From a virus, in IMG/VR virus record IMGVR_UViG_3300022871_000134, positions 1 to 21,825 of that record: a stretch of 21,825 bases of DNA, one strand, 5' to 3'. Shown here in pieces: positions 2,660-21,825 of the stretch. A program made the translations under genes and the position numbers. Numbering within the stretch: position 1 is the stretch's first letter; every line of letters starts with the position of its first letter. The notes beneath the pieces are model-generated. The model saw only the letters and a list, made by a program, of their open reading frames with translations, was not told where the DNA came from and searched no databases.

Positions 2660-2787
2660 AAAAATGTATCCAATGTAAAATGAAGAAAGATGAGAAAGAG
2701 TTTTACATATCTAGGGACAAAAAGAGTGGAAGTCTACCTGTATGTCACAAATGTTTACGGATAAATATGAAGAAATGGACAAAATAA
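2656..2787 (+). CDS. Minimal 43-aa zinc-finger paralog of the preceding gene
   Basis: This 43-codon gene starts at ATG 2656, inside the previous stop, with AAGGAG at 2645-2650 just ahead, and ends at TAA 2785-2787. The product begins MKKCIQCKMKKDEKEF and continues to a second CxxC (CHKC) and ends MKKWTK. Aligned by eye to the gene before it, it keeps the zinc-binding core (KKCxxCKxxKDExEF...CxxC...KKW) but lacks the long basic tail. It is either a tandem duplicate trimmed to its core or the front of a gene cut short by the HTH gene overlapping its 3' end. The strong ribosome site, coupled start and conserved cysteines make it a probable real gene. Its function is unknown. Confidence 0.65.
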   Translation: MKKCIQCKMKKDEKEFYISRDKKSGSLPVCHKCLRINMKKWTK

Positions 2788-3137
2788 AACAAGACTATAA
2801 CATTAATGATTTAAAAGATCCAAAAAAATACTGTGAGTTGTGCGGTAGTATTTTAGATCATCACGAGATTATTAAGAATTATAAGCCCATAGATATAATA
2901 AAAAAGATGATAGAGTTGTCTATACAATTCCCCAAGTCATTCCAGATATTATCCATAACTATACGCAACCCAGGATTGAGTTATCGTGAGTATAGTAAGA
3001 TACTAGGCGTGTCCTACAATGCAATATATCTGGGCATACAGCGATTGGAAAAACACTTTGCGATGAAGTTATATTGTCCTAAGTTCATTAGTTCTCCTGC
3101 CCAGAAGAGAAGAAGGAGAAGGGAGAGAGGTAAGTAA
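2742..3137 (+). CDS. HTH-like DNA-binding protein with one CxxC and a basic tail
   Basis: The longest frame starts at ATG 2742 (131 aa), but ATG 2751 and 2775 are also possible. None has a strong ribosome site, and 2775 gives an overlap with the preceding gene (13 nt) like the one just upstream. After a CELCG knuckle and a helical stretch (IDIIKKMIELS), residues about 85-110 read GLSYREYSKILGVSYNAIYL, which has the spacing of a helix-turn-helix: helix, 'GVS' turn, recognition helix. The C-terminus is strongly basic (KRRRRRERGK). It could be a late-gene regulator or a packaging accessory factor. A small-terminase role is less likely because the Nu1-like gene is upstream of the large subunit. 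The gene ends two bases before the first copy of the 22-bp intergenic motif. Confidence 0.65.
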   Translation: MSQMFTDKYEEMDKIKQDYNINDLKDPKKYCELCGSILDHHEIIKNYKPIDIIKKMIELSIQFPKSFQILSITIRNPGLSYREYSKILGVSYNAIYLGIQRLEKHFAMKLYCPKFISSPAQKRRRRRERGK

Positions 3138-3138
3138 C

Positions 3139-3160
3139 ATTGACAAAATATGGTATAATA
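3139..3160 (+). promoter_or_regulatory. 22-bp recurrent intergenic motif, copy 1 (candidate phage promoter)
   Basis: ATTGACAAAATA, four variable bases (TGGT), ATAATA. It lies 21 bases ahead of the gpW-like start. It is one of six near-identical copies in the window, all in gaps before gene starts. TTGACA looks like a -35 box, but the second conserved block is only 9-10 bases further, not 17. The function as a promoter is inferred. Confidence 0.6.
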
Positions 3161-3181
3161 GGATACTAAAGGAATAATATT

Positions 3182-3445
3182 ATGGCTTTACTTTCAGCAG
3201 AAGCGATGGCAGAACTTTGCCAGACCGCTTTATCAAGTATTATAACAGGTAAAATATCGTCATATAGTATTGGTGACTCTCAGTTTACTCGGCACAACAT
3301 TGACTCTCTTCAGAAGCTATACCAGTTTTGGAAGAAGGAAGCCTCTGTTGAAGCTAATGGCAAATCAAGAATACTAAAGGCTCAAATCAATAATGATGAT
3401 ATCTATCCCGCCGATTATGAAGAAGTTGTAGAAGAGGATTACTAA
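3182..3445 (+). CDS. Head-to-tail joining protein, lambda gpW-like
   Basis: This 87-residue protein starts at ATG 3182 behind AAAGGAATAATATT. Its N-terminal 50 residues follow the gpW pattern: an AELCQTALSSIITGK helix (alanine and leucine spaced as in gpW, ending in 'L..GK'), a short strand pair (SSYSIGDSQFTRHN) and a second helix (IDSLQKLYQFWKK). gpW (68 aa in lambda) binds at the portal vertex after packaging and forms the site for the next connector. The position between the large terminase and the portal is exactly that of W in lambda, which strengthens the call. The C-terminus is an acidic extension (EEVVEEDY) not needed by the family. The portal ATG follows the stop after one base. Confidence 0.8.
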   Translation: MALLSAEAMAELCQTALSSIITGKISSYSIGDSQFTRHNIDSLQKLYQFWKKEASVEANGKSRILKAQINNDDIYPADYEEVVEEDY

Positions 3446-3446
3446 T

Positions 3447-4427
3447 ATGTTAAAAAAGCTTCCTAAGTCCATTAAGACTAAAACGCCTGTGAGAAAAAGA
3501 AAAGCGTCTGGTTATGATGGTGCCTTGAATAGCAAGAACCGTTTAAACCGCTCTTATGTAACTACTTACTCTGTTGACGAAGATAATTTAATAGGAGCTT
3601 ATCAGGCAGAGAGATTGCGTCTTGAGGCAAAAGACTTGTTCAGGAACGGCATAGGTAAGGCTTGTGTAGACAGGTTTAGCACTTATGTAGTTGGCACAGG
3701 TTTTAACATTCAGGCTAAGACGAGCGATAAAATATGGAATACAAAGTCAGAAAAATATTTTCAAAATTGGGGTAAAGTAGCAGACTATAATAAAAGGAGA
3801 ACGTGGAATGAAATATTACAAACCATTGTCCGTGATAGATTGCTTGTCGGTGAATCGTTTTTTATCCTTACATTATGGGGGCAATTACAGCCAATTGAGG
3901 CAGAGAGGATCTGCACCCCAGAGCCAGCTAGTAAGTTTGCGACAAAGAAAATTGTTGCAGGTGCAGAGATTGTTAAAGGGATAATAGTTGCTTGGTATAT
4001 TTGTGACAGAGACAAGTATGGTGTTATTGACAAACGCAAGTATACTCGTATAGCCGCTAGAGATATGGTTCACGTAGCGGCAACTTGGAGATGGGATGCT
4101 GTCCGTAGTTTGGCAGAGTTATCACCGATATTAGATACACTCAGAGACAAATCTGAGTTTACAACTTCCACGATTATATCCGCCAAAATTGCTGCTCGTA
4201 AATCATTAATAGTAATGAGTGACAGTGATATGCCTACTACCCTGCCAGCTCGGAGCACCGATGAGTCTTCATCCAGCAGTGGTACAATCCAAAAACGCAC
4301 GAAGATTATCAAAACAAACGACGGCGAAATTTACTACGGAAATCCTGGTGACAAGCTGGAAACCTTAAACAAGAAGTGCCAGCAACAACCTACCCTGAAT
4401 TTACTAAGTCTATTCTGGGAGAGGTAG
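3447..4427 (+). CDS. Portal protein, gpB/Phage_portal_2 type, N-terminal part (frame broken)
   Basis: The start is ATG 3447, with GAGGA about ten bases ahead, right after the gpW-like stop. Residues 1-~310 match the lambda portal family: GYDGA near the N-terminus, the LRLEAKDLFRNG...KACVDRF helix and VVGTGFNIQAK (family pattern 'R.rdl.rNn..a..av....vG.G'), then ERICTPE, MVHVAATWRWDAVRSLAELSPIL and GEIYYGNPGDKLE. After that the reading frame carries an unrelated tail (CQQQPTLNLLSLFWER) to a TAG at 4425-4427, while the expected continuation appears in the -1 frame. Joined, the two parts give about 532 aa, essentially the length of lambda gpB (533). A short DESSSSSG tract sits in a presumed loop. 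As it stands this part alone would not make a working dodecameric portal. Confidence 0.88.
   Translation: MLKKLPKSIKTKTPVRKRKASGYDGALNSKNRLNRSYVTTYSVDEDNLIGAYQAERLRLEAKDLFRNGIGKACVDRFSTYVVGTGFNIQAKTSDKIWNTKSEKYFQNWGKVADYNKRRTWNEILQTIVRDRLLVGESFFILTLWGQLQPIEAERICTPEPASKFATKKIVAGAEIVKGIIVAWYICDRDKYGVIDKRKYTRIAARDMVHVAATWRWDAVRSLAELSPILDTLRDKSEFTTSTIISAKIAARKSLIVMSDSDMPTTLPARSTDESSSSSGTIQKRTKIIKTNDGEIYYGNPGDKLETLNKKCQQQPTLNLLSLFWER
4364..4380 (+). other. Frame-change site inside the portal gene (-1)
   Basis: The upstream frame is open to 4427 and the -1 frame is open from 4352 (a TGA lies at 4349-4351), so the change must occur between 4352 and 4424. C-TTA-AAC at 4364-4370 is phased as an X-XXY-YYZ slippery heptamer and would give LET-L-KQEV-PATTYPEF. 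A lost base in the A-rich stretch 4367-4376 (giving NKKV-PATTYPEF) explains the data equally well. I see no strong downstream hairpin, so a mutation or sequencing indel is slightly favoured over programmed shifting. Confidence 0.75.
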
Positions 4428-5044
4428 CTGCAATATTGGGCATATCTTATCAGGTGCTTATGTTGGAGTTAGCCAAGACAGATGAGGTGCAATTGAGAGT
4501 AGCTAGCCAGATATTTAAAATTTGGCAGCAATGGCTTTCTGAGAAATTCATTGAAAAGATTTGGAACTGGAGAATTGCCAAGGCTGTTAAGGCAGGAGAT
4601 TTGCCACCAGCACCCCTAGATGATAATGGTGTATCAGAATGGTATAAGATAGTTATCCTACCGCCACCTGATCCATTCGTAAAAGACGAAACCGCAAGAG
4701 ATGTTGCCGGTTTTAACCTTGGCTCCGTATCTATAACCCAGATTGCCCATAGAAAATCATTAGATAACAGGGAGTTACTAAGCGAAAAGACAGACGACAT
4801 TGGTGTTGCTATTGAATTGGCAGATGATTTGAATATAAAACATCCTGGGCAAAACATAACCTGGAGGGATGTTATTAACTCTACGGGTCCAGCGTCCTTA
4901 TCAGCCGTCCAAACTGCTGCCGATCAAGAAGTCCTAAAAGAAAAGGACGATAAAAAAGAAGAAGAGGAAGAAGAGGAAGAGGTTAAAAAGGTAGTAGTGC
5001 CAAAAAAGAGTATCATTAGTAAACTATTTAATAGATTTAAGTAA
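4376..5044 (+). CDS. Portal protein, C-terminal part in the -1 frame
   Basis: This frame continues the portal: PATTYPEFTKSILGEVAAILGISYQVL aligns with the family's 'PststfeaF....lr.iAaglGipYe.L' segment, which follows the 'pGd' motif found at the end of the first part. It then has the aromatic LRVASQIFKIWQQWLSEKFIEKIWNWRI helix, a PPDPFVKDETARD stretch typical of the gpB clip/wing end, and a long acidic tail (about 12 Glu in a row of 20) before a basic end (SIISKLFNRFK). The nominal first codon is GTG 4376, but no ribosome site precedes it and the sequence begins mid-domain, so independent translation is unlikely. It is best read as the second half of the gene at 3447. Confidence 0.85.
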   Translation: MPATTYPEFTKSILGEVAAILGISYQVLMLELAKTDEVQLRVASQIFKIWQQWLSEKFIEKIWNWRIAKAVKAGDLPPAPLDDNGVSEWYKIVILPPPDPFVKDETARDVAGFNLGSVSITQIAHRKSLDNRELLSEKTDDIGVAIELADDLNIKHPGQNITWRDVINSTGPASLSAVQTAADQEVLKEKDDKKEEEEEEEEVKKVVVPKKSIISKLFNRFK

Positions 5045-5048
5045 TGAC

Positions 5049-5070
5049 ATTGACAAAATAACTAATAATA
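5049..5070 (+). promoter_or_regulatory. 22-bp recurrent intergenic motif, copy 2
   Basis: ATTGACAAAATA, ACTA, ATAATA. It begins four bases after the portal stop and ends nine bases before the protease start, so it abuts the ribosome site (AAGGA at 5070-5074). A transcript starting inside the motif would have a very short leader. Confidence 0.6.
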
Positions 5071-5079
5071 AGGATTAAA

Positions 5080-6057
5080 ATGGATAAGAAAATATTAAGT
5101 ATAGTCAAAGTTAACAAATGGGCAATGGACATCGAAGCCTTTAAAGCCCTGCAAACAAATCTGCACTTAACAGATGCTTCCACTTTCGATTTAAAAATTG
5201 GTTACGAGCAACCCAACTACAATGTTGTTAATGGTGTTGCTGTTATCCCAATCAAAGGGGTGTTGTCAAAAGGCGTCTCTGATATTGAGGCTATTTTTCT
5301 AGATGTTATTGATACAGATAATGTTTCAGATATGTTTTCTAAAGCGGAAAGAGATGAAACTGTTGAGTCAATCGTGCTTGATATCAATAGCCCTGGTGGT
5401 TCTGCTGCTGGTATCCCAGAGTTATACGACAGAGTTTCCAATAGTTCCAAGCCTGTAATATCTTATGTTGATGAGATGTGTGCGTCGGGAGCCTACTGGA
5501 TTGCCTCTGCTAGTGACGCAATCTATGCAACCAAATCTGCTGATGTTGGTAGCATTGGTTGTTTCGTTTCGTTCCTTGATGTTAGTAAATACTTTGAAAA
5601 TCTTGGTGTGAAAAACGAAATGATTATCTCAACTGGATCAAAATATAAAGGGATGGGTGCTCCAGGGACATCGTTATCTGACACACATAGAGAGCAGTTG
5701 CAGACAGAGGTAGATTATATTAACGATATGTTCCACGAGGATGTTAACAAAAATAGAGCGATTAATCCTGACGATATGGCGGGACAAACCTTTATTGGTT
5801 CGATGGCTGAGAAAGCAGGTTACGTTGATAATATCGTGCTAGATGGTATTGATAGGGCAATGGCAGATGTTACTACCTTAGCTAATTTTAACGCCCAGAA
5901 ACAAGTATCGGAAACCTCAGTACAAGTTGAGGAATATAATTGTTCGTGTATAGATTGTGGGCACAAAATGAAATCGGATAAACATTGTAACACAATCAAG
6001 TGTCCTAAATGCGGCGGAGAAATGAGACGGCAGGAACGCCCAGGACCAGGAAGATAA
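5080..6057 (+). CDS. Head maturation protease, S49/SppA family (lambda gpC type), with C-terminal zinc ribbon
   Basis: This is a serine protease expected to cleave scaffold and other head proteins inside the prohead. The 325-residue product starts at ATG 5080 behind AAGGATTAAA. The S49 core is complete: VAVIPIKG strand (about 53-60), LDINSPGGS oxyanion segment (100-108), CASGAYWIAS with the catalytic Ser136, VGSIGCFVSF (156-165) and STGSKYKGMG with the candidate catalytic lysine (188 or 190). The position after the portal and before the scaffold and capsid is that of gpC. Unusually, residues 290-311 form a zinc ribbon with C290-x2-C293 and C308-x2-C311 (CIDCGH...CPKCGGEMRR), followed by a PGPGR end. 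In lambda the corresponding C-terminal region encodes the nested scaffold Nu3; here the scaffold candidate is a separate gene. Confidence 0.92.
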   Translation: MDKKILSIVKVNKWAMDIEAFKALQTNLHLTDASTFDLKIGYEQPNYNVVNGVAVIPIKGVLSKGVSDIEAIFLDVIDTDNVSDMFSKAERDETVESIVLDINSPGGSAAGIPELYDRVSNSSKPVISYVDEMCASGAYWIASASDAIYATKSADVGSIGCFVSFLDVSKYFENLGVKNEMIISTGSKYKGMGAPGTSLSDTHREQLQTEVDYINDMFHEDVNKNRAINPDDMAGQTFIGSMAEKAGYVDNIVLDGIDRAMADVTTLANFNAQKQVSETSVQVEEYNCSCIDCGHKMKSDKHCNTIKCPKCGGEMRRQERPGPGR

Positions 6058-6063
6058 TTAAGG

Positions 6064-6085
6064 ATTGACAAAATAACATATAGTA
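6064..6085 (+). promoter_or_regulatory. 22-bp recurrent intergenic motif, copy 3
   Basis: ATTGACAAAATA, ACAT, ATAGTA. It is the first of two tandem copies in the 77-base gap before the scaffold candidate. No gene start follows directly; the second copy lies 14 bases downstream. Confidence 0.6.
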
Positions 6086-6099
6086 CAAGTTAAAAAGAG

Positions 6100-6122
6100 G
6101 TTGACAAAATAAACATATAGTA
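6100..6122 (+). promoter_or_regulatory. Recurrent intergenic motif, copy 4 (one base longer)
   Basis: GTTGACAAAATA, AACAT, ATAGTA: the same motif with one extra spacer base, almost a duplicate of copy 3. It ends 12 bases before the scaffold-candidate ATG. The tandem pair is placed ahead of the scaffold and capsid genes, whose products are needed in the greatest amounts. Confidence 0.58.
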
Positions 6123-6134
6123 AGGAATATAATT

Positions 6135-6542
6135 ATGAGTGAAACAGTTGTTCAAAAATTAGAAAAAGCCGAAGCGTCAGTAAAAGAAAAAGATGCTGAC
6201 ATTGTTGCTAAGGTTGCAGATTTGAAAGTGGCAACCGAACTTGCAGAAGCAACTAAAGTTAAGGTTGATGCTTTTGATGTTCAAATTAAAGCGTTAGATG
6301 CTGAGATTGCTACTCTTAAAGAAGATGTTGCAACAAAAGAAGCATCAATCGTTGAACTGAATAAGAAAATAACTCTTAACCCAGTTGTTGACCAGCCAGA
6401 TGGTACTGCCGCAGTAGAAGATGGTGCTACCGATACTGTAGTGGTTGACCATTACAAAGTGTATAAGGAAATGGCAAACAAAAGAGAAGCAGCAGTTTAT
6501 TTCAAAGCCCACGAAGCCGAAATAACTGAAGCTTGCAAATAA
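6135..6542 (+). CDS. Putative scaffolding protein (coiled coil)
   Basis: This 135-residue acidic protein starts at ATG 6135 behind AAGGAATATAATT. Residues 5-78 are one long heptad-like coiled coil rich in Ala, Lys, Glu and Val (KLEKAEASVKEKDADI, KALDAEIATLKEDVATKEASIVEL), then a Pro/Gly/Asp linker (NPVVDQPDGTAAVEDG) and a short helical, basic-acidic C-terminal domain (YKVYKEMANKREAAVYFKAHEAEI). Head scaffolds are often short helical proteins with a charged C-terminal capsid-binding helix, and they lie between the protease and capsid genes, as here. I see no sequence match to a named scaffold family, so the role rests on position and fold. A decoration protein is a less likely alternative. Confidence 0.6.
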   Translation: MSETVVQKLEKAEASVKEKDADIVAKVADLKVATELAEATKVKVDAFDVQIKALDAEIATLKEDVATKEASIVELNKKITLNPVVDQPDGTAAVEDGATDTVVVDHYKVYKEMANKREAAVYFKAHEAEITEACK

Positions 6543-6578
6543 TCTCGTAAATAAGTAAATAAATAAAGGAATAAAATA

Positions 6579-7475
6579 ATGAGTATAACAGCGAATTTAG
6601 ATGTAGCCGTGATCGCCCAGAAAGCCATTGCGTCACTAAAAGTTAAGTTGCCTGCCCTTGCTGCGTTCTCCACCTCGTTTGGAGCTCAAGTGCAAGATAA
6701 GGGTGTGTCGGTAACCGTTCCATTGATTGGTTCAAAGACTGGTGGGGATTTCTCAGGAAATTACACCACGGATGCATCAAACAATGTGTCGTCAACTACC
6801 GTAACCCTTGACCAGTCAACGGATTCCGTAACTGGTTTAACAGACATCGAGTATGCGGATACTGGTTTACAAATTCTCAGCGACTATGCCGCAGAAGATA
6901 TGTATGCAGTTGCTAAGGTATGCGTAGATTATGCATTGGGCATCGTAACTGTTGCAAATTACCAAAGAGAGTTTGAGGTTGCCGCAGCCAGTTTTGCTGT
7001 TAGCTCTGTTATCTCTCTTAAAGCCGAGGCAATGAAGAGAGGTTTTGACACTGGCATAATTATGCTTAATGCAACGGCTTATGCCGCTTGGTTGGCTAGT
7101 TATGTGACCGCAGTTACATTCACTCCTGGCCAAAACCCAGAAACTACAGAGTTCCTTGGATTTAAGGTAATACCTTATATGAGTATGCCAACCAGCGAAG
7201 CTCTGATCGGTATTTGTTGCAATCCTGTCGCCCTGGCAGTTGCCTCAAGACCAGTTGCAGTGCTTCCTGGTGCAGGAACTGGAACTCAGCAAGCAGTTGT
7301 AACTGATGCTGACTCTGGTATTAGCCTTGGATTGAGAAGCTATTACAGCAACGACACTGGTAGACAAATCCAGGCCGTACATCAAGTTCACGGTGCCGCA
7401 GTAGGTAAGGCTGACGCTTTGATCAGGATTGTTTCAACTGATCAGAACAACAGTAGCACCTCGTCACAGACCTAA
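6579..7475 (+). CDS. Major capsid protein candidate, paralog 1
   Basis: This 298-residue protein starts at ATG 6579 behind AAAGGAATAAAATA. It has an N-terminal helix (NLDVAVIAQKAIASLKVKLPALAAF), a strand region with VTVPLIGSKTGGDFSGNYTTDASN, then TDIEYADTGLQIL, a long alpha region (VISLKAEAMKRGFD...IIMLNATAYAAWLA), and a conserved end (GISLGLRSYYSNDTGRQIQAVHQVHGAAVG). The composition, size, absence of membrane segments and place after protease and scaffold all fit an HK97-fold coat protein, with a P22-coat-like feel, but I cannot name a family with certainty. It is followed after 66 bases by a strongly similar gene. Its tail is short and only mildly serine-rich (NNSSTSSQT), unlike its paralog. 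It is the better candidate for the bulk shell subunit. Confidence 0.75.
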   Translation: MSITANLDVAVIAQKAIASLKVKLPALAAFSTSFGAQVQDKGVSVTVPLIGSKTGGDFSGNYTTDASNNVSSTTVTLDQSTDSVTGLTDIEYADTGLQILSDYAAEDMYAVAKVCVDYALGIVTVANYQREFEVAAASFAVSSVISLKAEAMKRGFDTGIIMLNATAYAAWLASYVTAVTFTPGQNPETTEFLGFKVIPYMSMPTSEALIGICCNPVALAVASRPVAVLPGAGTGTQQAVVTDADSGISLGLRSYYSNDTGRQIQAVHQVHGAAVGKADALIRIVSTDQNNSSTSSQT

Positions 7476-7495
7476 GTTAGTAAAATAAGGAAGTA

Positions 7496-7526
7496 GTCCT
7501 CCTCCTGCTAAACCCAGGAGGAGAAC
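7496..7526 (+). other. Stem-loop between the two capsid genes
   Basis: A 12-bp stem (7496-7507 pairing with 7515-7526, one C-A mismatch) closes a 7-base loop. The arms are CT-rich and AG-rich. No T-run follows, so it is not a standard intrinsic terminator. It could attenuate transcription or protect the upstream capsid mRNA from 3' decay, setting different levels for the two capsid proteins. Confidence 0.65.
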
Positions 7527-7541
7527 TTCATAGGTAAAAAT

Positions 7542-8600
7542 ATGAGTATAACATCTGATCTGGATCTATCCGCAATTGTAAAAACTGCGATTGCAAGTTT
7601 AAAAGTTAAATTACCTATTTTATCTGCGTTCTCCACCGACTTCGGTGCTCAGGTAAAGTCCGTTGGAACCTCGTTAACTGTGCCTTTAATAGGTGCTAAA
7701 TTGACTGCTGGAGCATTTAGTGGTAATTATACTACTGATGCTAGTAATAGTGTAACATCGACAAAAGTAACCCTAGATAAGTCAACAGACAGCGGAACGG
7801 GATTAACCGACATCGAATACGCCGACACTGGTTTGCAAATTTTAGGTGATTATCTGAAAGAAGATGTCTATGCTGTAGCTCGAGTTGTGGTTGATAACGC
7901 CCTAGATATAATTACTGTCGCAAATTACGCAAACGAATATGTCAAAGCCGCTGCGTCTTTTGATTTAGACTCAGTGATTGCCCTTAAAACACAGGCTATG
8001 GCGTTAGGTTGGGACAGAGGAACGATTGTTTTAAATGCAGATGCATATGCTAATTTCCTTGGAGAATATGTTGATGCGGTGACATTTACGCCAGGACAAG
8101 ATCCGAATGTCCTTGAATTTTTAGGTTTTAAAATTATATGTTATCCAAATTTGCCTACAACTGAAACAATGATTGGTTTCTGTTGTAATCCGATTAGTAT
8201 AGCAGTAGCAAGTAGACCTGTAGCCATTCCTCCGAATGCAAAAGCAGGTGGCACGACAGTATCAGTTACTACAGAAGCCGATAGCGGTATTTCTCTTGGA
8301 TTAAGAAGTTATTACTCAAACGATACTGGCAGACAAATTCAAATTATCCATCAAGTTCACGGTGCCGCAGTAGGGCTCACAAATGGTTTAATTAGAATAG
8401 TCTGGTCTGACCAGATTGGTTCAACAAGTTCGGAAAGCAGCTTGAGTAGCCCAAGCAGCCCTAGCTCTCCTAGTAGCAAGAGTAGCTTAAGCAGCCCTAG
8501 CAGCAAGAGTAGCCTAAGCAGCCTGTCGTCAAGTAGCGAAAGTAGTTTAAGTTCTGTTAGTTCAATTAGTTCAATTAGCTCAATTAGCTCAAATCCATAG
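7542..8600 (+). CDS. Major capsid protein candidate, paralog 2, with C-terminal serine-rich tail
   Basis: This 352-residue protein starts at ATG 7542. Residues 1-~290 align over their whole length with the preceding capsid gene, sharing MSIT, IASLKVKLP, VPLIG, FSGNYTTDASN, TGLTDIEYADTGLQIL, VTFTPGQ, CCNP, VASRPVA and SGISLGLRSYYSNDTGRQIQ; identity is roughly 60% by eye. DNA identity is much lower except for a 26-bp identical patch (7380-7405 versus 8349-8374). The paralog adds a tail from about residue 296 of Ser-Ser-X triplets (SSPSSPSSPSSKSSL, SSISSISSISSNP), coded by 8427-8591. The tail would be disordered and probably exposed on the shell. The gene could encode a minor coat subunit, a vertex subunit or a decorated form. 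A strong terminator follows. Confidence 0.75.
   Translation: MSITSDLDLSAIVKTAIASLKVKLPILSAFSTDFGAQVKSVGTSLTVPLIGAKLTAGAFSGNYTTDASNSVTSTKVTLDKSTDSGTGLTDIEYADTGLQILGDYLKEDVYAVARVVVDNALDIITVANYANEYVKAAASFDLDSVIALKTQAMALGWDRGTIVLNADAYANFLGEYVDAVTFTPGQDPNVLEFLGFKIICYPNLPTTETMIGFCCNPISIAVASRPVAIPPNAKAGGTTVSVTTEADSGISLGLRSYYSNDTGRQIQIIHQVHGAAVGLTNGLIRIVWSDQIGSTSSESSLSSPSSPSSPSSKSSLSSPSSKSSLSSLSSSSESSLSSVSSISSISSISSNP
8427..8591 (+). repeat. Serine-coding repeat tract, capsid paralog 2 tail
   Basis: About 55 codons of Ser-Ser-X, mostly AGT/AGC pairs with X = Leu, Pro, Lys, Val or Ile. It begins just after the end of homology with capsid paralog 1, so it is an addition to the C-terminus. Confidence 0.85.
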
Positions 8601-8629
8601 TCGTAACATTGTCGGTCGGTCGGTTGGTT

Positions 8630-8664
8630 AAAGAGCACGGGTCCTCCTCCCGTGCTCTTTTTTT
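8630..8664 (+). terminator. Strong intrinsic terminator after the capsid genes
   Basis: A perfect 12-bp stem (8630-8641 with 8649-8660, GC-rich centre AGCACGGG/CCCGTGCT) closes a 7-base loop and runs into seven Ts (8658-8664). It starts 30 bases after the capsid paralog 2 stop. It should end the head transcript. A copy of the 22-bp motif starts 12 bases after the T-run, as expected if that motif restarts transcription. Confidence 0.93.
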
Positions 8665-8675
8665 GCCTTTTTAAC

Positions 8676-8697
8676 ATTGACAAAATACCCAATAATA
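8676..8697 (+). promoter_or_regulatory. 22-bp recurrent intergenic motif, copy 5
   Basis: ATTGACAAAATA, CCCA, ATAATA. It lies between the intrinsic terminator and the 8727 gene start (29 bases ahead). This placement is the best contextual evidence in the window that the motif is a promoter. Confidence 0.68.
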
Positions 8698-8726
8698 GAA
8701 CTCTAAATTAATTAAGGAGTAATATT

Positions 8727-9041
8727 ATGGCTATTGATGTTGATATTTTTGCTGAAGATTTTGCTATTGCACTTGCTGATATACCTACTAATGCTGCTTT
8801 TGATAATTTCCATCTCAATGTCTTATTCCAGAAGGTAAATCAGCAAGAGACACCACTAATGGAGGGCGTAGAGGGTAACCTAGTGGCTGTGGCATATGTA
8901 TCCTTAGCATCCTTGGGGACGCATACTATTAGTATTGGTGACAAATGCACTATTAATTCCAATCAGTATAGAGTTAACGCCGTCAACCCTTATACCCACG
9001 GTCAATTTTATCGCCTTGACCTAGTTGACGAAAACTCTTAA
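8727..9041 (+). CDS. Putative head-tail connector/stopper (gpFII-like)
   Basis: This 104-residue protein starts at ATG 8727 behind AAGGAGTAATATT, the strongest ribosome site of the window. It has an acidic N-terminus (VDIFAEDFAIALADIP) and a beta-rich remainder ending HTISIGDKCTINSNQYRVNAVNPYTHGQFYRLDLVD. The late 'GD...i.g..y.V..v.p...g..rl.L' pattern is that of small beta-barrel stoppers such as lambda gpFII (117 aa), which seal the filled head and dock the tail. Size and place, first gene after the capsid and before a gpZ-like gene, agree. The match is by pattern only; other small neck proteins remain possible. Confidence 0.5.
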   Translation: MAIDVDIFAEDFAIALADIPTNAAFDNFHLNVLFQKVNQQETPLMEGVEGNLVAVAYVSLASLGTHTISIGDKCTINSNQYRVNAVNPYTHGQFYRLDLVDENS

Positions 9042-9051
9042 GGATTAAAAT

Positions 9052-9705
9052 ATGTCCGTCCAAGTTGACTTAACACAATTTAATGCCGCAATGCTCCGTT
9101 ATAAAAAAGAAACAGGCAAGACGCTAGAAGAGTCTTGTAACCGTTCCTTAAAGAACCTCATCATCCACGCTGTTAAAGGTAACTATATCCGTCAGGCACA
9201 AAGAGCAAGTATAGAAGCAATCAGGAGAGCACCATGGTTTAACAAATATATAACTAAATTACTTGGGCATAAATTTACACCAAGTAAAGCAAGGAAGGTA
9301 ACTCAAAAAGGCATGGGGCTAAGTGGCAGGAAATCAACAACTGATTATAGGATTAAATGGGACAAACTTGCCAATGCAATAATTAAAAAAAGAGTTAGGG
9401 CAATAAAATTTTTAACAAAACTAATGGCTAGTTGCTCTCGTGTTATCCCAGCTAAAAATGCAAAGTCGGCAGGCTGGGTTGCTAAGATACCAGGGAGTTT
9501 TGCTTATGTTAAGGTAGCAACCCAGATGAAACCAACTGCATCAATTAGTTTTGGGTTTGATTATAAAAACTCTAGAAAAAGAGTTAAATCATCTGGTGGT
9601 GCGGAGAGAATAATGGGGCAGGCGATACGGAAGGCAGTTCCAGAGACCGTAAAAGATATGGAACAATATATTGCCAATAAGTTGCGTAAAAAATATAAGC
9701 AATAG
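9052..9705 (+). CDS. Putative tail completion/minor tail protein (gpZ/gp10-like)
   Basis: This is a 217-residue, strongly basic protein with ATG 9052 behind AAGGATTAAAAT. It opens VDLTQFNAAMLRYKKETGKTLEESCNRSLKNLIIHAVK, an amphipathic helical start common in gpZ and HK97-gp10-type tail completion proteins, which have a helical 'f...l.......k..e...n..a..l...a' opening. It has several Arg/Lys-rich stretches and a C-terminal helix (VKDMEQYIANKLRKKYK). Lambda gpZ (192 aa) sits in the same place, between FII and U. Its job would be to ready the tail for joining to the head. The family assignment is by pattern and synteny, not by a diagnostic motif. Confidence 0.55.
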   Translation: MSVQVDLTQFNAAMLRYKKETGKTLEESCNRSLKNLIIHAVKGNYIRQAQRASIEAIRRAPWFNKYITKLLGHKFTPSKARKVTQKGMGLSGRKSTTDYRIKWDKLANAIIKKRVRAIKFLTKLMASCSRVIPAKNAKSAGWVAKIPGSFAYVKVATQMKPTASISFGFDYKNSRKRVKSSGGAERIMGQAIRKAVPETVKDMEQYIANKLRKKYKQ

Positions 9706-9722
9706 TATAATAGGTATAATTA

Positions 9723-10226
9723 ATGGCTAATATTTATAAAATCAAAAAGGATGTTGAAAATCTTTTTAAGCAATATCTAAGAGACGAGTTGCCTCCAACC
9801 GAATCTTCTTCATCATCATCCCCTAGCTCAATTAGTAATACTTATTCTGGCAGTTCCAACAGCTCATCCGACAGGGATTATAATTATCTAACTGGTATGA
9901 CGGGTGATGAATTTGCCTTGCCTGCCATTACTATTATCTGTCAGGAAGCCAATATGGACATACTATCCTACAACTGGGACTGTCTGGTTGAGATAGGCAT
10001 ATGGCACCATTATGCTGACTCAACAAGGGCGATCCATAACGACAAGGTAGCAGAGATTAGAGATAAACTGATTGTTGACTCTGAGGATTTATGCACAATC
10101 TTGAACACCAATACCTTAGGAATAGATGCTATGCTCTATACTCCAACGGAAAGTAATAGAAGCGTAGAAGGTAAAAAATGGCTAACCGTTCAATCATTAA
10201 CCCTCAAATGTAACTACTTAGGATAA
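9723..10226 (+). CDS. Tail terminator-like protein (gpU position), paralog 1
   Basis: This 167-residue acidic protein starts at ATG 9723. The gpU position (after the gpZ-like gene) and size suggest a tail terminator, which caps the growing tail tube and fixes its length. It has an N-terminal helix (KKDVENLFKQYLRDEL), a serine-rich loop at about 28-49 (SSSSSSPSSIS...SSNSSSD), then YLTGMTGDEFALPAITI, DILSYNWDCLVEIGIWHHYADSTRAIHNDKVAEIRDKLIVDSEDLCTILN and a closing strand (EGKKWLTVQSLTLKCNYLG). The N-terminal 150 residues of the gene at 10888 match it closely (LxGMTxxEyxLPAI, LSYNW, HYxDS, HxDKVA, DKLxVDSxDLCxILNT, GKKW). The stretch just before its start (TATAATAGG) resembles the 3' half of the 22-bp motif but lacks TTGACA. 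Confidence 0.5.
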   Translation: MANIYKIKKDVENLFKQYLRDELPPTESSSSSSPSSISNTYSGSSNSSSDRDYNYLTGMTGDEFALPAITIICQEANMDILSYNWDCLVEIGIWHHYADSTRAIHNDKVAEIRDKLIVDSEDLCTILNTNTLGIDAMLYTPTESNRSVEGKKWLTVQSLTLKCNYLG

Positions 10227-10228
10227 TT

Positions 10229-10888
10229 ATGAGCAAAATAGCAATAGGTATTAGGTGTTTTGGTAACCCAGATAGTATGTTCCATCGTTCTCTTATCCGT
10301 TTTCTGCAATTAAATAAAACACAGAACACAATGCTTTTACCAACTGTTTATGATCTACCCTACCATGTTGCAGCCAATGAGATTTCAAAGCTATTTCTAG
10401 ATAGTGGATATGACAACTTACTCTTCCTAGATAGCGATATGGTGTTTGAGTATGAAGACTTTTTAAAGATTAAAGCCGACATTGAAGATCCAAAGAATGA
10501 CAAGTATGGAATTATATCAGGATTATACCCCACACGCAGAGGAAAACTAATGCCATTAGTGATGTTTAAGCAAGGAGACGCATGGGTTAGCGATGTAACT
10601 AAATTAGTTGATGGGATTACAACAGTGGACGGTTGCGGATTAGGATTTACTGTTGTTAGAAGAAAATGTTTTGACCTACCTTGTTTTAAAGATAGTCCAT
10701 ATTTTGTGATGAAAGAAGAAGTAAGTGAAGATGTTTATTTTTGTGAAGCAGTAAAAGAACACGGTATATTAACTGGTTTGGATAAGGATATAAACCTTGG
10801 TCATAGAACAGCAGTAACAGTAAAATGGAATTTAAAAGATAACAAGGCGGATTTATTTACCCAGGATTGTTTTGGGAGAAGTAATTAA
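10229..10888 (+). CDS. Glycosyltransferase, GT-A fold (family 2-like)
   Basis: This 219-residue protein starts at ATG 10229 (AGGATAATT ahead), two bases after the previous stop. It has GT-A hallmarks: a leading strand IAIGIRCFG, YDNLLFLDSDMVFE with the metal-binding DxD as Asp68-Ser-Asp70, GIISGLYPTRR, VDGCGLGFTVVRRKCF, then SEDVYFCEAVKEHGI (166-180) and INLGHRTAV with a late His. This is the usual phage GT-A layout, in which SED and GH supply acceptor and metal contacts. It should transfer a sugar from a nucleotide sugar; donor and acceptor cannot be read from sequence. It is sandwiched between two tail terminator paralogs and its stop overlaps the start of the giant serine-rich protein (TAATG), so that protein's serines are the obvious acceptor candidate. 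It lacks membrane segments, so it probably acts in the cytoplasm. Confidence 0.82.
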   Translation: MSKIAIGIRCFGNPDSMFHRSLIRFLQLNKTQNTMLLPTVYDLPYHVAANEISKLFLDSGYDNLLFLDSDMVFEYEDFLKIKADIEDPKNDKYGIISGLYPTRRGKLMPLVMFKQGDAWVSDVTKLVDGITTVDGCGLGFTVVRRKCFDLPCFKDSPYFVMKEEVSEDVYFCEAVKEHGILTGLDKDINLGHRTAVTVKWNLKDNKADLFTQDCFGRSN

Positions 10889-13584
10889 TGACACAAAGAT
10901 ATCAAAATGTAGAAGCGGTTCTTGAAGATATTTTCAAACAATATCTCCTGGGTAGCCTATACTCTTTTTCGTCTTCTTCTACATCTGGTTATGCTTATCT
11001 TGAGGGTATGACGGATGAGGAATACACCTTACCTGCTATCCTTATACAATGTCCTACGGCAATTGTTGATCCCTTAAGTTATAATTGGACGATTAATGTC
11101 AATATTAGTGTAGCCAATCATTATGTTGACAGTAATTCTGATGCCCACGAAGACAAGGTTGCTAAGGTGTTTGACAAGTTGGTTGTTGACTCTGACGATT
11201 TATGCGACATTTTAAACACAACATCCTTAGATTTACACTGTCAGCAATGGAGTATTCTTGATGCCAAAAAAGAAGTAGTGGGTAAAAAATGGATATCAAC
11301 CATTTATGCCACAATGCTTTGTAACTTGAGATTTCCTGAGAGTAGTTCTTCATTTAGTAGTTTAAGTTCCGCTAGTAGCCCAAGCAGTTTGAGTTCTTTC
11401 AGTAGTAAAAGTAGTTCTAGTATCTCTTCTGTTTCCAGTAGCACAGCGACATCTGCAAGTCCAAGTTCTATTAGTAGTAAGAGTAGTTTGTTTTCCAGTA
11501 GCAAGAGTAGCGTTAGTAGCGTGAGCAGCCCATCATCAAGTAGCAAGAGTAGTTTAAGTTCGGCTAGTAGTTTGAGTAGTGCTAGTAGTATGTCTTCTAG
11601 TAGCAAGAGTTCCTTAAGCAGTCTATCTTCAAGCAGTATTAGCAGTGTTAGTAGCCTAAGTAGTTTGAGCAGCCTAAGTTCAAGTAGCCCTAGTAGTAAG
11701 AGCAGTTTAAGTTCCTTGAGCAGCCTAAGTTCCAGTAGTAAGAGTTCCTATAGTAGTATTAGTAGTGCAAGCAGTTTATCTTCTAGTAGCATTAGCAGCC
11801 AGAGCAGCCTAAGTAGCTTAAGCAGTTTGTCATCCAGTAGTCAAAGTAGTTTAAGCAGTCTGAGCAGCCTAAGTTCTAGCAGCCTAAGTAGTCTGAGTAG
11901 CCAGAGTAGTATTTCTTCAAGCAGTATCAGCAGCCAGAGTAGCCAGAGTTCCTTGAGCAGCCTAAGTTCCAGTAGTCAAAGTAGCCCAAGTAGTTTAAGT
12001 AGCTTATCTTCTAGCAGCCTAAGTAGCTTATCTTCAGTTAGTAGCCTAAGTTCCAGTAGTCAGAGCAGCTTAAGTAGCCTGAGCAGTTTAAGTTCTAGCA
12101 GCCAGAGTAGTTTGAGTTCCTTAAGCAGCCTGTCGTCTAGCAGCCAGAGTAGTCTAAGCAGTTTAAGTAGCTTAAGTTCTAGCAGCCTAAGTAGTCAGAG
12201 TTCCTTGAGCAGTCTATCCTCTAGTAGTCAGAGTAGCCCAAGTAGTTTAAGTAGCATATCATCCAGTAGCCAGAGTAGTCTTAGTAGTCTGAGCAGTTTG
12301 TCATCTAGCAGTGTTAGTAGTGTCAGCAGCATAAGTAGTGTTAGCAGTTTATCTTCCAGTAGCCAGAGTAGTTTGAGTAGCCTAAGCAGCCTGTCGTCTA
12401 GCAGCCAGAGTAGCCTTAGTAGCCTGAGTAGTTTGTCTTCTAGTAGCCAGAGCAGTCAGAGTAGTTTAAGTAGTTTGTCATCCAGTAGTCAGAGTAGTAT
12501 CAGTTCCTTAAGTAGCATATCATCCAGCAGCCAGAGTAGTCTAAGTAGTCTTAGTAGCCTAAGTTCCAGTAGTCAGAGTAGCCCAAGTAGTTTAAGTAGC
12601 ATATCATCCAGTAGCCAGAGCAGCCAGAGCAGCCTGAGCAGCCTAAGTTCAAGTAGTCAAAGTAGCCCAAGTAGCCTGAGTAGCTTATCTTCCAGTAGCC
12701 AGAGTAGCCCAAGTAGTTTAAGTAGCTTAAGTTCTAGCAGCCTAAGTAGTCAGAGTTCCTTAAGCAGCCTGTCGTCAAGCAGTCAGAGTAGTTTGAGTTC
12801 CTTAAGTAGCTTATCTTCCAGCAGCCAGAGCAGTTTAAGTAGTCTGAGTAGCCTATCGTCTAGTAGCCAGAGTAGTCTAAGTAGCCTGAGCAGTTTAAGT
12901 TCTAGCAGCCAGAGTAGTTTGAGTTCCTTAAGCAGTCTATCTTCTAGCAGCGAAAGTTCCTTGAGTAGCCTATCATCTAGTAGCGAAAGTTCCTTAAGTA
13001 GTCTATCATCTAGTAGCGAAAGTTCCTTAAGTAGCCTATCTTCCAGCAGTGAAAGTTCCTTGAGTAGCCTATCTTCTAGTAGCGAAAGTTCCTTGAGTAG
13101 CCTATCATCTAGTAGTCAAAGTAGCCTAAGCAGCCTAAGTAGTGATATCTGTCCTAATAACATATCAGCAATCAATACAGATATACACGCTGATGATACT
13201 ATATTTACTATTGAGAGCCAAATAGCATTGACAGTTAATGGTGGTGTTGACCAGGATAATTACTTATTGCTGTATGACGGAGATACTGCTGGTCAACCTT
13301 ATGACAATGACAATAGATTTTACGGTGAGGTTACTACCTATGATGCTCAGACCTTGACATCTAATGGATTTGTAACAACCTTGGTTAATGGCAAGGAATA
13401 TTACTTACCAATCTATAAGGGCGATGCAACTGTTGATTGTTGCTCTAACTTAATTGGCACACAATACGCAGAAGAATTTTTTGATACTTACACCTTAGCT
13501 GGGTATATATTAATTAAAGTTAATGGAGATGTATTTAAATACACCCCTGTATTTGAGGTAGCGGAAAGTTCTAGTAGCCCGTAG
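10888..13584 (+). CDS. Tail terminator paralog 2 fused to a 600-residue serine-rich repeat and a C-terminal domain
   Basis: This 898-residue protein has three parts. Residues 1-~150 are paralogous to the gene at 9723 (LEGMTDEEYTLPAI, LSYNW, ANHYVDS, DKLVVDSDDLCDILNT, VVGKKW). Residues 152-752 are Ser-Ser-X repeats, mainly 14-residue (SSLSSLSSLSSSSQ) and 11-residue (SSLSSLSSSSQ or ...E) units with X = Leu, Gln, Pro, Lys, Glu, Val or Ile. Residues 753-898 are a separate, apparently folded beta-rich domain (DTIFTIESQIALTVNGG, NYLLLYDGDTAG, YYLPIYKGDATVDCCS, YILIKVNGDVFKYTP). It starts inside the glycosyltransferase stop. The repeat region keeps its frame through about 1.8 kb, which implies selection on the protein. 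It would be disordered and extended; a surface arm on the neck or tail is inferred. No secretion signal is present. Confidence 0.85.
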   Translation: MTQRYQNVEAVLEDIFKQYLLGSLYSFSSSSTSGYAYLEGMTDEEYTLPAILIQCPTAIVDPLSYNWTINVNISVANHYVDSNSDAHEDKVAKVFDKLVVDSDDLCDILNTTSLDLHCQQWSILDAKKEVVGKKWISTIYATMLCNLRFPESSSSFSSLSSASSPSSLSSFSSKSSSSISSVSSSTATSASPSSISSKSSLFSSSKSSVSSVSSPSSSSKSSLSSASSLSSASSMSSSSKSSLSSLSSSSISSVSSLSSLSSLSSSSPSSKSSLSSLSSLSSSSKSSYSSISSASSLSSSSISSQSSLSSLSSLSSSSQSSLSSLSSLSSSSLSSLSSQSSISSSSISSQSSQSSLSSLSSSSQSSPSSLSSLSSSSLSSLSSVSSLSSSSQSSLSSLSSLSSSSQSSLSSLSSLSSSSQSSLSSLSSLSSSSLSSQSSLSSLSSSSQSSPSSLSSISSSSQSSLSSLSSLSSSSVSSVSSISSVSSLSSSSQSSLSSLSSLSSSSQSSLSSLSSLSSSSQSSQSSLSSLSSSSQSSISSLSSISSSSQSSLSSLSSLSSSSQSSPSSLSSISSSSQSSQSSLSSLSSSSQSSPSSLSSLSSSSQSSPSSLSSLSSSSLSSQSSLSSLSSSSQSSLSSLSSLSSSSQSSLSSLSSLSSSSQSSLSSLSSLSSSSQSSLSSLSSLSSSSESSLSSLSSSSESSLSSLSSSSESSLSSLSSSSESSLSSLSSSSESSLSSLSSSSQSSLSSLSSDICPNNISAINTDIHADDTIFTIESQIALTVNGGVDQDNYLLLYDGDTAGQPYDNDNRFYGEVTTYDAQTLTSNGFVTTLVNGKEYYLPIYKGDATVDCCSNLIGTQYAEEFFDTYTLAGYILIKVNGDVFKYTPVFEVAESSSSP
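11341..13143 (+). repeat. Large serine-coding repeat (Ser-Ser-X, 33/42-bp units)
   Basis: Spans 601 codons without a frame break. Unit lengths of 42 and 33 bp alternate. Six units with Glu cluster at the 3' end (about 12950-13110), while Gln units dominate the middle and varied X residues the 5' end. Serine is coded by both AGY and TCN: L-flanked Ser pairs are mostly AGY-AGY, and four-Ser blocks usually carry a TCN codon near the front. Two serine codon families mixed throughout limit the length of perfect DNA repeats. Confidence 0.92.
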
Positions 13585-13586
13585 AC

Positions 13587-13608
13587 ATTGACAAAGTAAT
13601 ATAAGGTA
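13587..13608 (+). promoter_or_regulatory. 22-bp recurrent intergenic motif, copy 6 (diverged)
   Basis: ATTGACAAAGTA, ATAT, AAGGTA: the least conserved copy, with one change in the first block and changes in the second. It begins three bases after the serine-rich gene's stop and ends 30 bases before the 13639 start. Confidence 0.5.
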
Positions 13609-13638: not shown

Positions 13639-13989
13639 ATGAGCACAGCACCAATTCAAAAAGGTACAACGGTTTTTCTTGGTTACGGTAGTTACACATA
13701 CGATGTCATATTGACAGACGATATGACCGTATCTCCAATCGCAGATGTGTCAACGATTAATGACGAAATGAATGCTACAACTACAGTTATCGTATATAAT
13801 CCTGGCGAACATCTTGATATGTCGGGAGTTATAAAAGGCACCGTGGTTCCTACTATTCTATTAGTGGGTGGAACGGTTTCAATTAATGCAGTCACCTGGA
13901 GAGTTGAGAAATACGATATTAAACTTGCCAGAACGGAAGCTAAGTTAACATTAGCAGCGATTAAAGAAGCAAGTATGACATATACCTAA
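13639..13989 (+). CDS. Putative small tail tube or tail structural protein
   Basis: This 116-residue protein starts at ATG 13639 behind AAAGGAATAAAAT. It is almost all beta: TTVFLGYGSYTYDVILTDDMTVSPIADVSTI, ATTTVIVYNPGEHLDMSGVIKGTVVPTILLVGGTVSINAVTWRVEKYDIKLARTEAKLTLAAIKEASMTY. Repeating strands with 'GtVvP', 'GGtvsI...tWrV' and 'tLtLaai' are typical of small tube- or ring-forming phage proteins. It has its own upstream motif copy, as an abundant product might. Lambda gpV, the tail tube protein, follows gpU as this gene does, but gpV is about twice as long. A connector-type ring protein is an alternative. No other tail tube candidate is visible in the window. Confidence 0.45.
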   Translation: MSTAPIQKGTTVFLGYGSYTYDVILTDDMTVSPIADVSTINDEMNATTTVIVYNPGEHLDMSGVIKGTVVPTILLVGGTVSINAVTWRVEKYDIKLARTEAKLTLAAIKEASMTYT

Positions 13990-20779: not shown

Positions 20780-21825
20780 ATGAATATTTATTGGTCATAT
20801 ACCGAACATAAAATAATCCAAAGCATTTATTCTAAAAATGTTGTTAACTCATTTACTTGGGTTCTTAGGGATTATGTTGCTATAGATTTATTTGTTGTTA
20901 CTCCCCAGATTTCTAACACTCAGCCATACATAATTGGTGAAATTCCCGATGGATTTTCTTTTAAAATATCTGGCAAAAAGAATAAATTTTTTAAAGACAA
21001 CCCATTACTATGCGATGGCTCTTGGACACAACACGGCACGGGCGAGGACACTTATTATGAGACTAATGTTAGATTAGATAACAACGCCCTTGTCCCAGAA
21101 ATGGGTGAAACAAGCGAATTAGATTTAATTGGAGAATTAGCCAGGACAAGAGAAAATGAAAATTATGATAGCACAAGATTTAATTTAAAAATTATATCTG
21201 ATATAATAAGGTTGAGCGATGTATGCCCAACTCCTGTGGAATACAGCTCTTCCAGCTCATTGAGTTCATTAAGTTCTAGTAGTTCGTCCTTCAGTAGTCT
21301 AAGTAGCGTAAGCAGTTATAGCAGTTCAAGCAGTGCTAGTAGCGTTAGTAGCTTAAGCTCCAGTAGCGTAAGTAGCCAGAGTAGCCAGAGTAGCGAGAGC
21401 AGTAGTGCAACTAGCACAAGCAGTAGCGAAAGTTGGAGCACGGAGACAAGCAGTTCCACATCCCAGAGCAGCCTAAGTAGTAGCTCGATCAGCAGTATTA
21501 GTAGTCTATCGTCTAGTAGTATCAGTAGTATAAGTAGTTCTAGTAGTTTGAGTAGCCTGAGTTCAAGTAGTTTGAGTAGTGTTAGTAGTCCTAGTAGTGT
21601 CAGTAGCACCAGTAGTAAGAGTAGCCCAAGCAGCCTGAGTTCCAGTAGCGTCAGTTCCGTATCCTCTGTAAGTTCGGAAAGTTCCTACCCTTACGAGGTA
21701 ACTTATTGCGATGGTAGGTTCTCTATATTCCCAAGGACGGAACCAAATATTGTGTTAGATAATAAGACGGGTAGATATTGGACAAAAGATGCCAATATTG
21801 GTGGAACTATGTCTCAAGGTGCTGC
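20780..21825 (+). CDS. Tail protein with serine-rich linker and DUF1566/Lcl-like C-terminus, 3' end cut by window
   Basis: ATG 20780 follows the previous stop with no gap, and the frame stays open to the window end (348 codons). The N-terminal ~155 residues form a distinct domain (MNIYWSYTEHKIIQSIYS, SFTWVLRDYVAIDLFVVTPQ, EIPDGFSFKISGKKNKFF, ETNVRLDNNALVPEMGETSELDL), probably an attachment domain to the tail. Residues 156-302 are a Ser-Ser-X linker with varied X residues. After YPYEVTYCDGRF comes NIVLDNKTGRYWTKDANIGGTM, which fits the opening of the DUF1566/Lcl C-terminal family ('v.DnrTGLmWtkdan.gg..tw.eA'). Members of that family have a C-type-lectin-like fold and bind surface ligands, so the protein is a candidate receptor binder. 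Less than 30 residues of that domain are visible, so the assignment is provisional. Confidence 0.75.
   Translation, partial: MNIYWSYTEHKIIQSIYSKNVVNSFTWVLRDYVAIDLFVVTPQISNTQPYIIGEIPDGFSFKISGKKNKFFKDNPLLCDGSWTQHGTGEDTYYETNVRLDNNALVPEMGETSELDLIGELARTRENENYDSTRFNLKIISDIIRLSDVCPTPVEYSSSSSLSSLSSSSSSFSSLSSVSSYSSSSSASSVSSLSSSSVSSQSSQSSESSSATSTSSSESWSTETSSSTSQSSLSSSSISSISSLSSSSISSISSSSSLSSLSSSSLSSVSSPSSVSSTSSKSSPSSLSSSSVSSVSSVSSESSYPYEVTYCDGRFSIFPRTEPNIVLDNKTGRYWTKDANIGGTMSQGA
21245..21685 (+). repeat. Serine-coding repeat tract, terminal tail protein linker
   Basis: 147 codons, mostly Ser-Ser-X with X = Leu, Val, Ile, Gln, Tyr, Phe, Glu, Ala, Thr, Pro or Lys. It is less regular than the tract at 11341-13143, has no dominant 11- or 14-residue unit, and includes an odd Trp (ESWSTETSSS). 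It links two apparently folded domains. Confidence 0.88.

Follow-up and report, generated by a model that had tools for sequence, protein, structure and literature searches.

A strand-specific intergenic motif ahead of virion genes in an uncultured phage group, a candidate series of phage-specific late promoters

The locus and its intergenic motif

We analyzed the virus record IMGVR_UViG_3300022871_000134 over its positions 1–21,825 (21,825 nt, hereafter the window), in which a short motif recurs in the gaps between genes, and compared it with three viral contigs of the same group, L079, L090 and L091. The + strand of the window carries packaging, head and tail genes, and PHROGs matches were obtained for the terminase, the head-tail adaptor, the portal, the protease, two capsid paralogues and a tape-measure gene. 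An initial annotation, made from the sequence alone, had singled out the motif and named the genes behind it; the head-tail adaptor, portal, protease and capsid are borne out by these matches, whereas neither its "scaffold" gene (6135–6542) nor its "tail tube" gene (13639–13989) has a PHROGs match. The six motif copies (s1 to s6) and the two features that bear most directly on them are listed below.

2775..3137, + strand: protein of 120 residues with a zinc knuckle and a helix-turn-helix (HTH), candidate reader of the motif; PF13412 HTH_24, E 1.4e-4, just under the cut-off
3139..3160, + strand: s1 (TTGACA AAATATGG TATAAT A), before the head-tail adaptor gene (3182–3445); homologues in L079, L090 and L091
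5049..5070, + strand: s2, before the head maturation protease gene (5080–6057); homologues in L079, L090 and L091
6064..6085, + strand: s3, which with s4 forms a tandem pair ahead of the putative scaffold gene (6135–6542)
6100..6122, + strand: s4, second of the tandem pair, with a spacer one base longer
8630..8660, + strand: intrinsic terminator hairpin (12-pair stem, z -6.74) followed by a T run, downstream of the capsid genes and ahead of s5
8676..8697, + strand: s5, directly after the terminator and before a connector-type gene (8727–9041); same arrangement in L090 and L091
13587..13608, + strand: s6, before the gene at 13639–13989; homologous copy in L090 at 14616

All six copies lie on the + strand, in gaps between open reading frames and ahead of genes, as had been described initially. 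Against the pattern ATTGACAAAATA-N4-ATARTA, those at 3139, 5049, 6064 and 8676 are exact matches, that at 13587 has three mismatches, and that at 6100 departs from the pattern by its longer spacer. The distances from the end of the 22-mer to the next ATG agree with the earlier description (21, 9, 13–14, 29 and 30 nt, with the first tandem copy 49 nt away), and at s2 the ribosome-binding site begins exactly where the motif copy ends. In dinucleotide shuffles, 0.17 matches were expected per shuffle, and none of 100 shuffles reached five. A scan of strand and position, which the initial annotation had proposed as a check, found the perfect 11-mer TTGACAAAATA five times on the + strand and never on the - strand of the whole 21.8-kb record, where a reversed control pattern did not occur at all. 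De novo word counting recovered six copies in the window, a weak signal as one of three shuffles also reached six, and was clearer in L090 and L091. The motif is genuine and goes beyond chance.

Motif anatomy and conservation at homologous junctions

Relatives were found by single-protein and profile scans of viral contigs with the terminase, protease, capsid and HTH protein, which returned three members of the same group and, beyond these, only distant ones. L079 (the same contig as L023; 7.0 kb) is 94.7% identical to the window over a long aligned stretch, L090 (= L080; 14.8 kb) about 68–84% over longer stretches, and L091 (11.7 kb), the most diverged of the three, about 64–68% at the DNA level over longer aligned stretches. 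The four contigs hold 21 motif sites (six in the window, four in L079, six in L090 and five in L091), of which 19 are distinct and were used for column counts; s1 and s2 of L079 were dropped as identical to those of the window. The motif is kept at every homologous junction that the relatives cover (4/4 sites in L079, 6/6 in L090, 5/5 in L091), and all 21 sites lie in gaps on the coding strand. The tandem pair s3–s4 is likewise kept in the four contigs, with its copies 36 (window), 33 (L079), 28 (L090) and 35 (L091) nt apart. In L091, HNH-type genes have been inserted between the upstream gene and s1, and likewise s2, and the motif remains with the downstream gene. The HNH/zinc-finger endonuclease-like genes adjoining motif junctions, judged by eye, lie at 4462–5085 and 6908–7540 of L091.

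With positions numbered from the first T of TTKACA as 1, the 19 distinct sites give the refined form RSA-TTKACAAAATA-N3-WAWRRT-A. Positions -3 to -1 are R, S and A. Positions 1–10 (TTKACAAAAT) are invariant save for the K at position 3 and a single deviating site at each of positions 9 and 10; positions 11–12 are mostly AA, 13–14 variable, 15–20 WAWRRT, 21 mostly A and 22–24 mostly purine. Compared with the two-block layout of the initial annotation, the motif extends three bases further upstream, and the second block, placed there 9–10 bases after TTGACA, is better drawn as WAWRRT at 8 nt. The full WAWRRT occurs 8 nt after TTKACA in 14 of the 19 sites, and at any other spacing from 0 to 30 in at most 3. 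In the window alone, WAWRRT at a spacing of 8 or 9 matches 36 of 36 letters (shuffled mean 25.3; not reached in any of 20,000 shuffles). A matrix derived from these 19 distinct sites scores them at 15.8–31.5 and the best other place on both strands of the four contigs at 9.9; since it was trained on these same sites, only the gap to the remaining places is informative.

A concerted one-base change in the most diverged relative

At position 3, every one of the 16 sites in the window, L079 and L090 has G, and every one of the five in L091 has T (TTGACA vs TTTACA). At the other nine core positions, none of 45 letters changed between the window and L091 (Fisher p 4.7e-7), and one of 45 between L090 and L091 (p 2.8e-6). 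The change is a single evolutionary event, from TTG to TTT or the reverse, and the five L091 sites that carry it are spread over four gaps with differing flanks. The same change at five sites with different flanks is the expected outcome of a change in a shared reader, and its occurrence at all sites together points to a trans-acting, phage-specific reader rather than to the -35 box of a host sigma-70 promoter. It would also be compatible with a move to another host that supplies a different factor.

Position relative to ribosome-binding sites and a terminator

The distance from the first T of the motif to the ATG is 42, 42 and 38 nt at s1, 30, 21 and 20 nt at s2, 34, 33 and 33 nt at s4, and 50 nt throughout at s5 (window, L090 and L091, respectively). 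At s2 of the window and at all three s4 sites, the ribosome-binding AGG begins at motif position 22–23, and in L091 the ATG of s2 itself starts at position 21. By our own count over 12 site-gene pairs (s1, s2, s4 and s5 in the window, L090 and L091), a transcript starting by position 21 would contain the AGG in 10 pairs and miss it in 2. If the second box were a sigma-type -10 (start near position 26–28), the AGG would lie inside the transcript in 6 pairs and outside in 6, and with TTKACA as a -35, from which a transcript starts about 35 nt downstream, inside in 3 and outside in 9. Because ribosome-binding sites or start codons lie at, or within 2 nt of, the motif end at several sites, a transcript that serves the adjacent gene would have to start at or before position 21.

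The strong terminator that had been noted before the copy at 8676 is confirmed. Hairpins of different sequence occupy the equivalent place in L090 (z -6.08) and L091 (z -7.08), and the order terminator, motif, gene is found in all three phages. As the terminator directly precedes s5, a new start signal would be needed before the post-capsid gene.

Distribution beyond the group

Scans of the viral contig collection with three forms of the motif matched 73, 20 (tandem form) and 27 stretches, and several good-scoring copies per record were found only in this group (L023/L079 and L090). Seven better single matches were checked in context, some lying inside genes and others before genes of unrelated records; the matches outside the group look like chance, ordinary sigma-70 tandem boxes or other repeats. 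The motif is absent from two distant relatives, L092 and L093 (terminase identity 34% and 33%), and counting words de novo in six distant relatives brought out nothing that resembles it. L094 has a different repeat, a palindrome around AAGCGGACA-GGA-TGTCCGCGCGCC that occurs at least eight times, dispersed and on one strand only.

Among bacterial genomes, the capsid profile found no match and the terminase profile one distant match (22%), in Cerasicoccus arenae. Among isolate phages, no DNA match to the window and none for the HTH protein were found, and the terminase reached 24% at best. Among the papers listed by a literature search, which included the literal 11-mer, none describes this motif, and those listed for the 11-mer were unrelated by their titles and abstract starts.

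Probable late promoters and their candidate readers

On these grounds we infer a series of late promoters with a phage-specific reader, the likeliest candidate for which is a single-subunit phage RNA polymerase; to this reading we give about as much credence as doubt. The six copies would be the promoters of the virion-gene (late) part of the phage. A phage-specific factor would bind the invariant block RSATTKACAAAATA and melt the AT-rich box WAWR, transcription would start on a purine around motif position 19–21, and the 5' end of the message would lie at the ribosome-binding site of the following gene or shortly upstream of it. The terminator would end the capsid unit and s5 would restart transcription behind it, while the tandem pair s3–s4 may boost the scaffold/capsid unit. 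The earlier proposal of a phage-specific late promoter distinct from normal sigma-70 promoters gains support from the conservation at homologous junctions, the strand and gap bias, the order of terminator and motif, the L091 change and the geometry of the ribosome-binding sites. Its further part, that the reader is a phage RNA polymerase or sigma-like factor, is conjectural, and the only candidate regulator seen is the zinc/HTH protein encoded just upstream of s1. Summed over the two readings that do not invoke host sigma-70, namely a phage polymerase and a redirected host polymerase, promoter function is by our estimate probable. More tentatively, a dedicated polymerase or sigma-4-like factor may read a 24-bp late promoter, with one lineage having switched the specificity of the factor and all its promoters by a single base, which would constitute a previously undescribed phage transcription system.

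Several observations weigh against a single-subunit phage polymerase as the reader. No RNA polymerase gene (PF00940) was found in any of the nine records searched, all of which are fragments, with a control search that recovered the T7 gene. At s2 of L090 and L091, a start within the motif would yield leaderless messages, and read-through from upstream could serve any gene, which makes the geometry an argument rather than a proof. Promoters of T7, T3 and SP6 share the core CACTATAG at -7 to +1 (PMC13029058), the part that is more conserved between T7-type promoters (PMC9596486). Here, CACTATAG at the fitting offset averages 4.05 of 8 matches and reaches at least 6 in 4 of the 19 sites (best 7/8, in two L091 sites); it scores higher at another offset (4.89), so the resemblance is not convincing, and the variable positions 13–14 fall inside the stretch that would correspond to -7 to +1.

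Alternatively, host RNA polymerase may be redirected by the zinc/HTH protein, acting as a sigma region-4-like or Ltr/RinA-like activator that binds TTKACAAAATA, with WAWRRT as the -10; we regard this as possible but rather unlikely. In the window, L079 and L090 this gene immediately precedes s1, and in L091 a single HNH gene separates the two; its profile is found in all four motif-bearing records and in none of five distant relatives. Besides its weak HTH match (E 1.4e-4), the protein matches sigma-70 region 4 at 12.6–12.8 bits, below the cut-off, in three of the four records. Region 4 (PF08281), the one part of phage sigma factors that was searched for, stayed below the cut-off in the window, L079 and L090 and gave no match in L091. 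The top six Foldseek matches of the modelled zinc/HTH protein are region-4 (-35-binding) domains, but their E-values are not significant (0.31 or higher), the mean pLDDT of the model is 61.5, and a second structural comparison returned LuxR-type, sigma and other HTH folds side by side, none with a Z above 8.2. A sequence search of solved structures with the protein matched none. The recognition-helix stretch reads SYNAIYLGIQ in the window and SYNSIYLGIQ in L090, which carry TTG, and SKMAICLNIK in L091, which carries TTT, but this is one event in a protein only 55% identical, and no link is shown by it. A sigma-type -10 at the second box would also start the transcript past the ribosome-binding site at s2 and s4, and HTH proteins occur right after the terminase in the distant relative L095, which has no such motif.

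A precedent for such a regulator is staphylococcal phi13, whose late regulator, Ltr, is encoded just upstream of the late promoter on which it acts, a promoter at which four direct repeats may serve as binding sites (PMC13123087); the placement is alike, whereas phi13 has its repeats at a promoter upstream of the late genes and the window has six sites across head and tail genes. Among the Pfam and PHROGs matches listed for the zinc/HTH protein, up to an E-value of 1, none is to the Ltr/RinA/ArpU family. Two further observations concern this gene position: the HTH-like proteins of L095 (3450–4192) are two small proteins, one with CxxC pairs, at the place of the window's zinc/HTH gene, and in the window a 43-residue zinc-finger reading frame (2656–2790) lies just before the HTH gene and overlaps its start. 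Beside the same gene, the frame at 2312–2659 has a PHROGs endonuclease VII match.

A protein-binding operator, or a 5'-leader RNA element for translation control or processing, appears improbable. In favor of it, the motif lies near start codons, and a concerted one-base change would also be expected if a specific protein bound the motif as RNA or DNA; however, the motif is not palindromic and has a single orientation, the AGG distance varies from position 11 to 40 with no AGG at s2 of L091, a fixed AT-rich box lies downstream within the motif, and a copy follows the terminator, a place that calls for a fresh start of transcription.

Ordinary host sigma-70 promoters in which TTGACA serves as the -35, or promoters of another host sigma factor, are very unlikely. 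TTGACA is the -35 consensus and s1 has GATACT at 16 nt (10/12), but sigma-70-like sites are not in excess in the window (55 vs 58.7 in shuffles, sd 7.8). As had been noted from the window alone, no -10-like hexamer is conserved at 16–18 nt; over the 19 sites the full WAWRRT is found in none at 16, 17 or 18 nt. Sigma-70 transcription starts about 35 nt after the -35 box, upstream of the ribosome-binding site, and here that start would fall past the ribosome-binding site at s1, s2 and s4 of all three phages. The G of TTGACA has, moreover, been lost together at all L091 sites. We reject sigma-70 on spacing, ribosome-binding-site geometry and the L091 change. Chance or plain sequence relatedness, to which AT-rich gaps and few lineages lend some color, is hardly credible given that no shuffle reached five copies and that the core is conserved within DNA that is otherwise only about two thirds identical.

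Comparison with known promoter systems

Like the motif as read here, T7-type promoters (T7, T3, SP6 and EM1) are directional elements of about 20 bp in many copies before genes, in which a specific block that changes from phage to phage leads into an AT-rich box for melting and a start on a purine; EM1 promoters lie 9–82 bp from the start codon (PMC9596486; PMC13029058). A T7-type promoter would be contained within about 23 bp, end near the start and have a purine at +1; the element here spans about 24 bp and has R at position 19 in 18 of the 19 sites. In size and start geometry, the motif may work like a T7-type promoter. It differs in its unconserved CACTATAG core, in three variable bases between the blocks and in the lack of a polymerase gene in the fragments searched, and because the CACTATAG match is unconvincing we do not file it as a T7-type promoter. 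Xp10 is a further system for comparison, with lambda-like head genes and a single-subunit polymerase.

Similarly, the phage sigma factor promoters of phiEco32 and 7-11 are low-copy conserved intergenic motifs before late genes, which were found by comparison of intergenic regions; the 7-11 motifs are short (TG, TGATGT, TATA) and, unlike the window motif, without a long upstream block (PMC4331800). A further difference is that no sigma factor gene was found here by the region 4 search.

Other features of the window

The portal gene of the window (3447–5044) is split into two overlapping open frames with a break near 4376–4427, either a sequencing error or a real frameshift; the frame is uninterrupted in L079, L090 and L091. 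The two capsid paralogues lie in tandem at 6579–8600, and a conserved strong hairpin separates them; L090 and L091 share this arrangement. The frame at 10888–13584 encodes an 898-residue protein, half serine, with SSxSSx repeats (626 residues in L090), and similar serine runs occur at the end of one capsid paralogue and past position 21300.

Implications

If the motif copies are late promoters with a phage-specific reader, they would delimit the units of late transcription in an uncultured group of phages and provide a new orthogonal pair of promoter and reader. In addition, sister phages whose promoters stand one base apart at every site would represent a natural specificity-swap experiment, in which it can be asked which protein, and which residue, sets promoter specificity.

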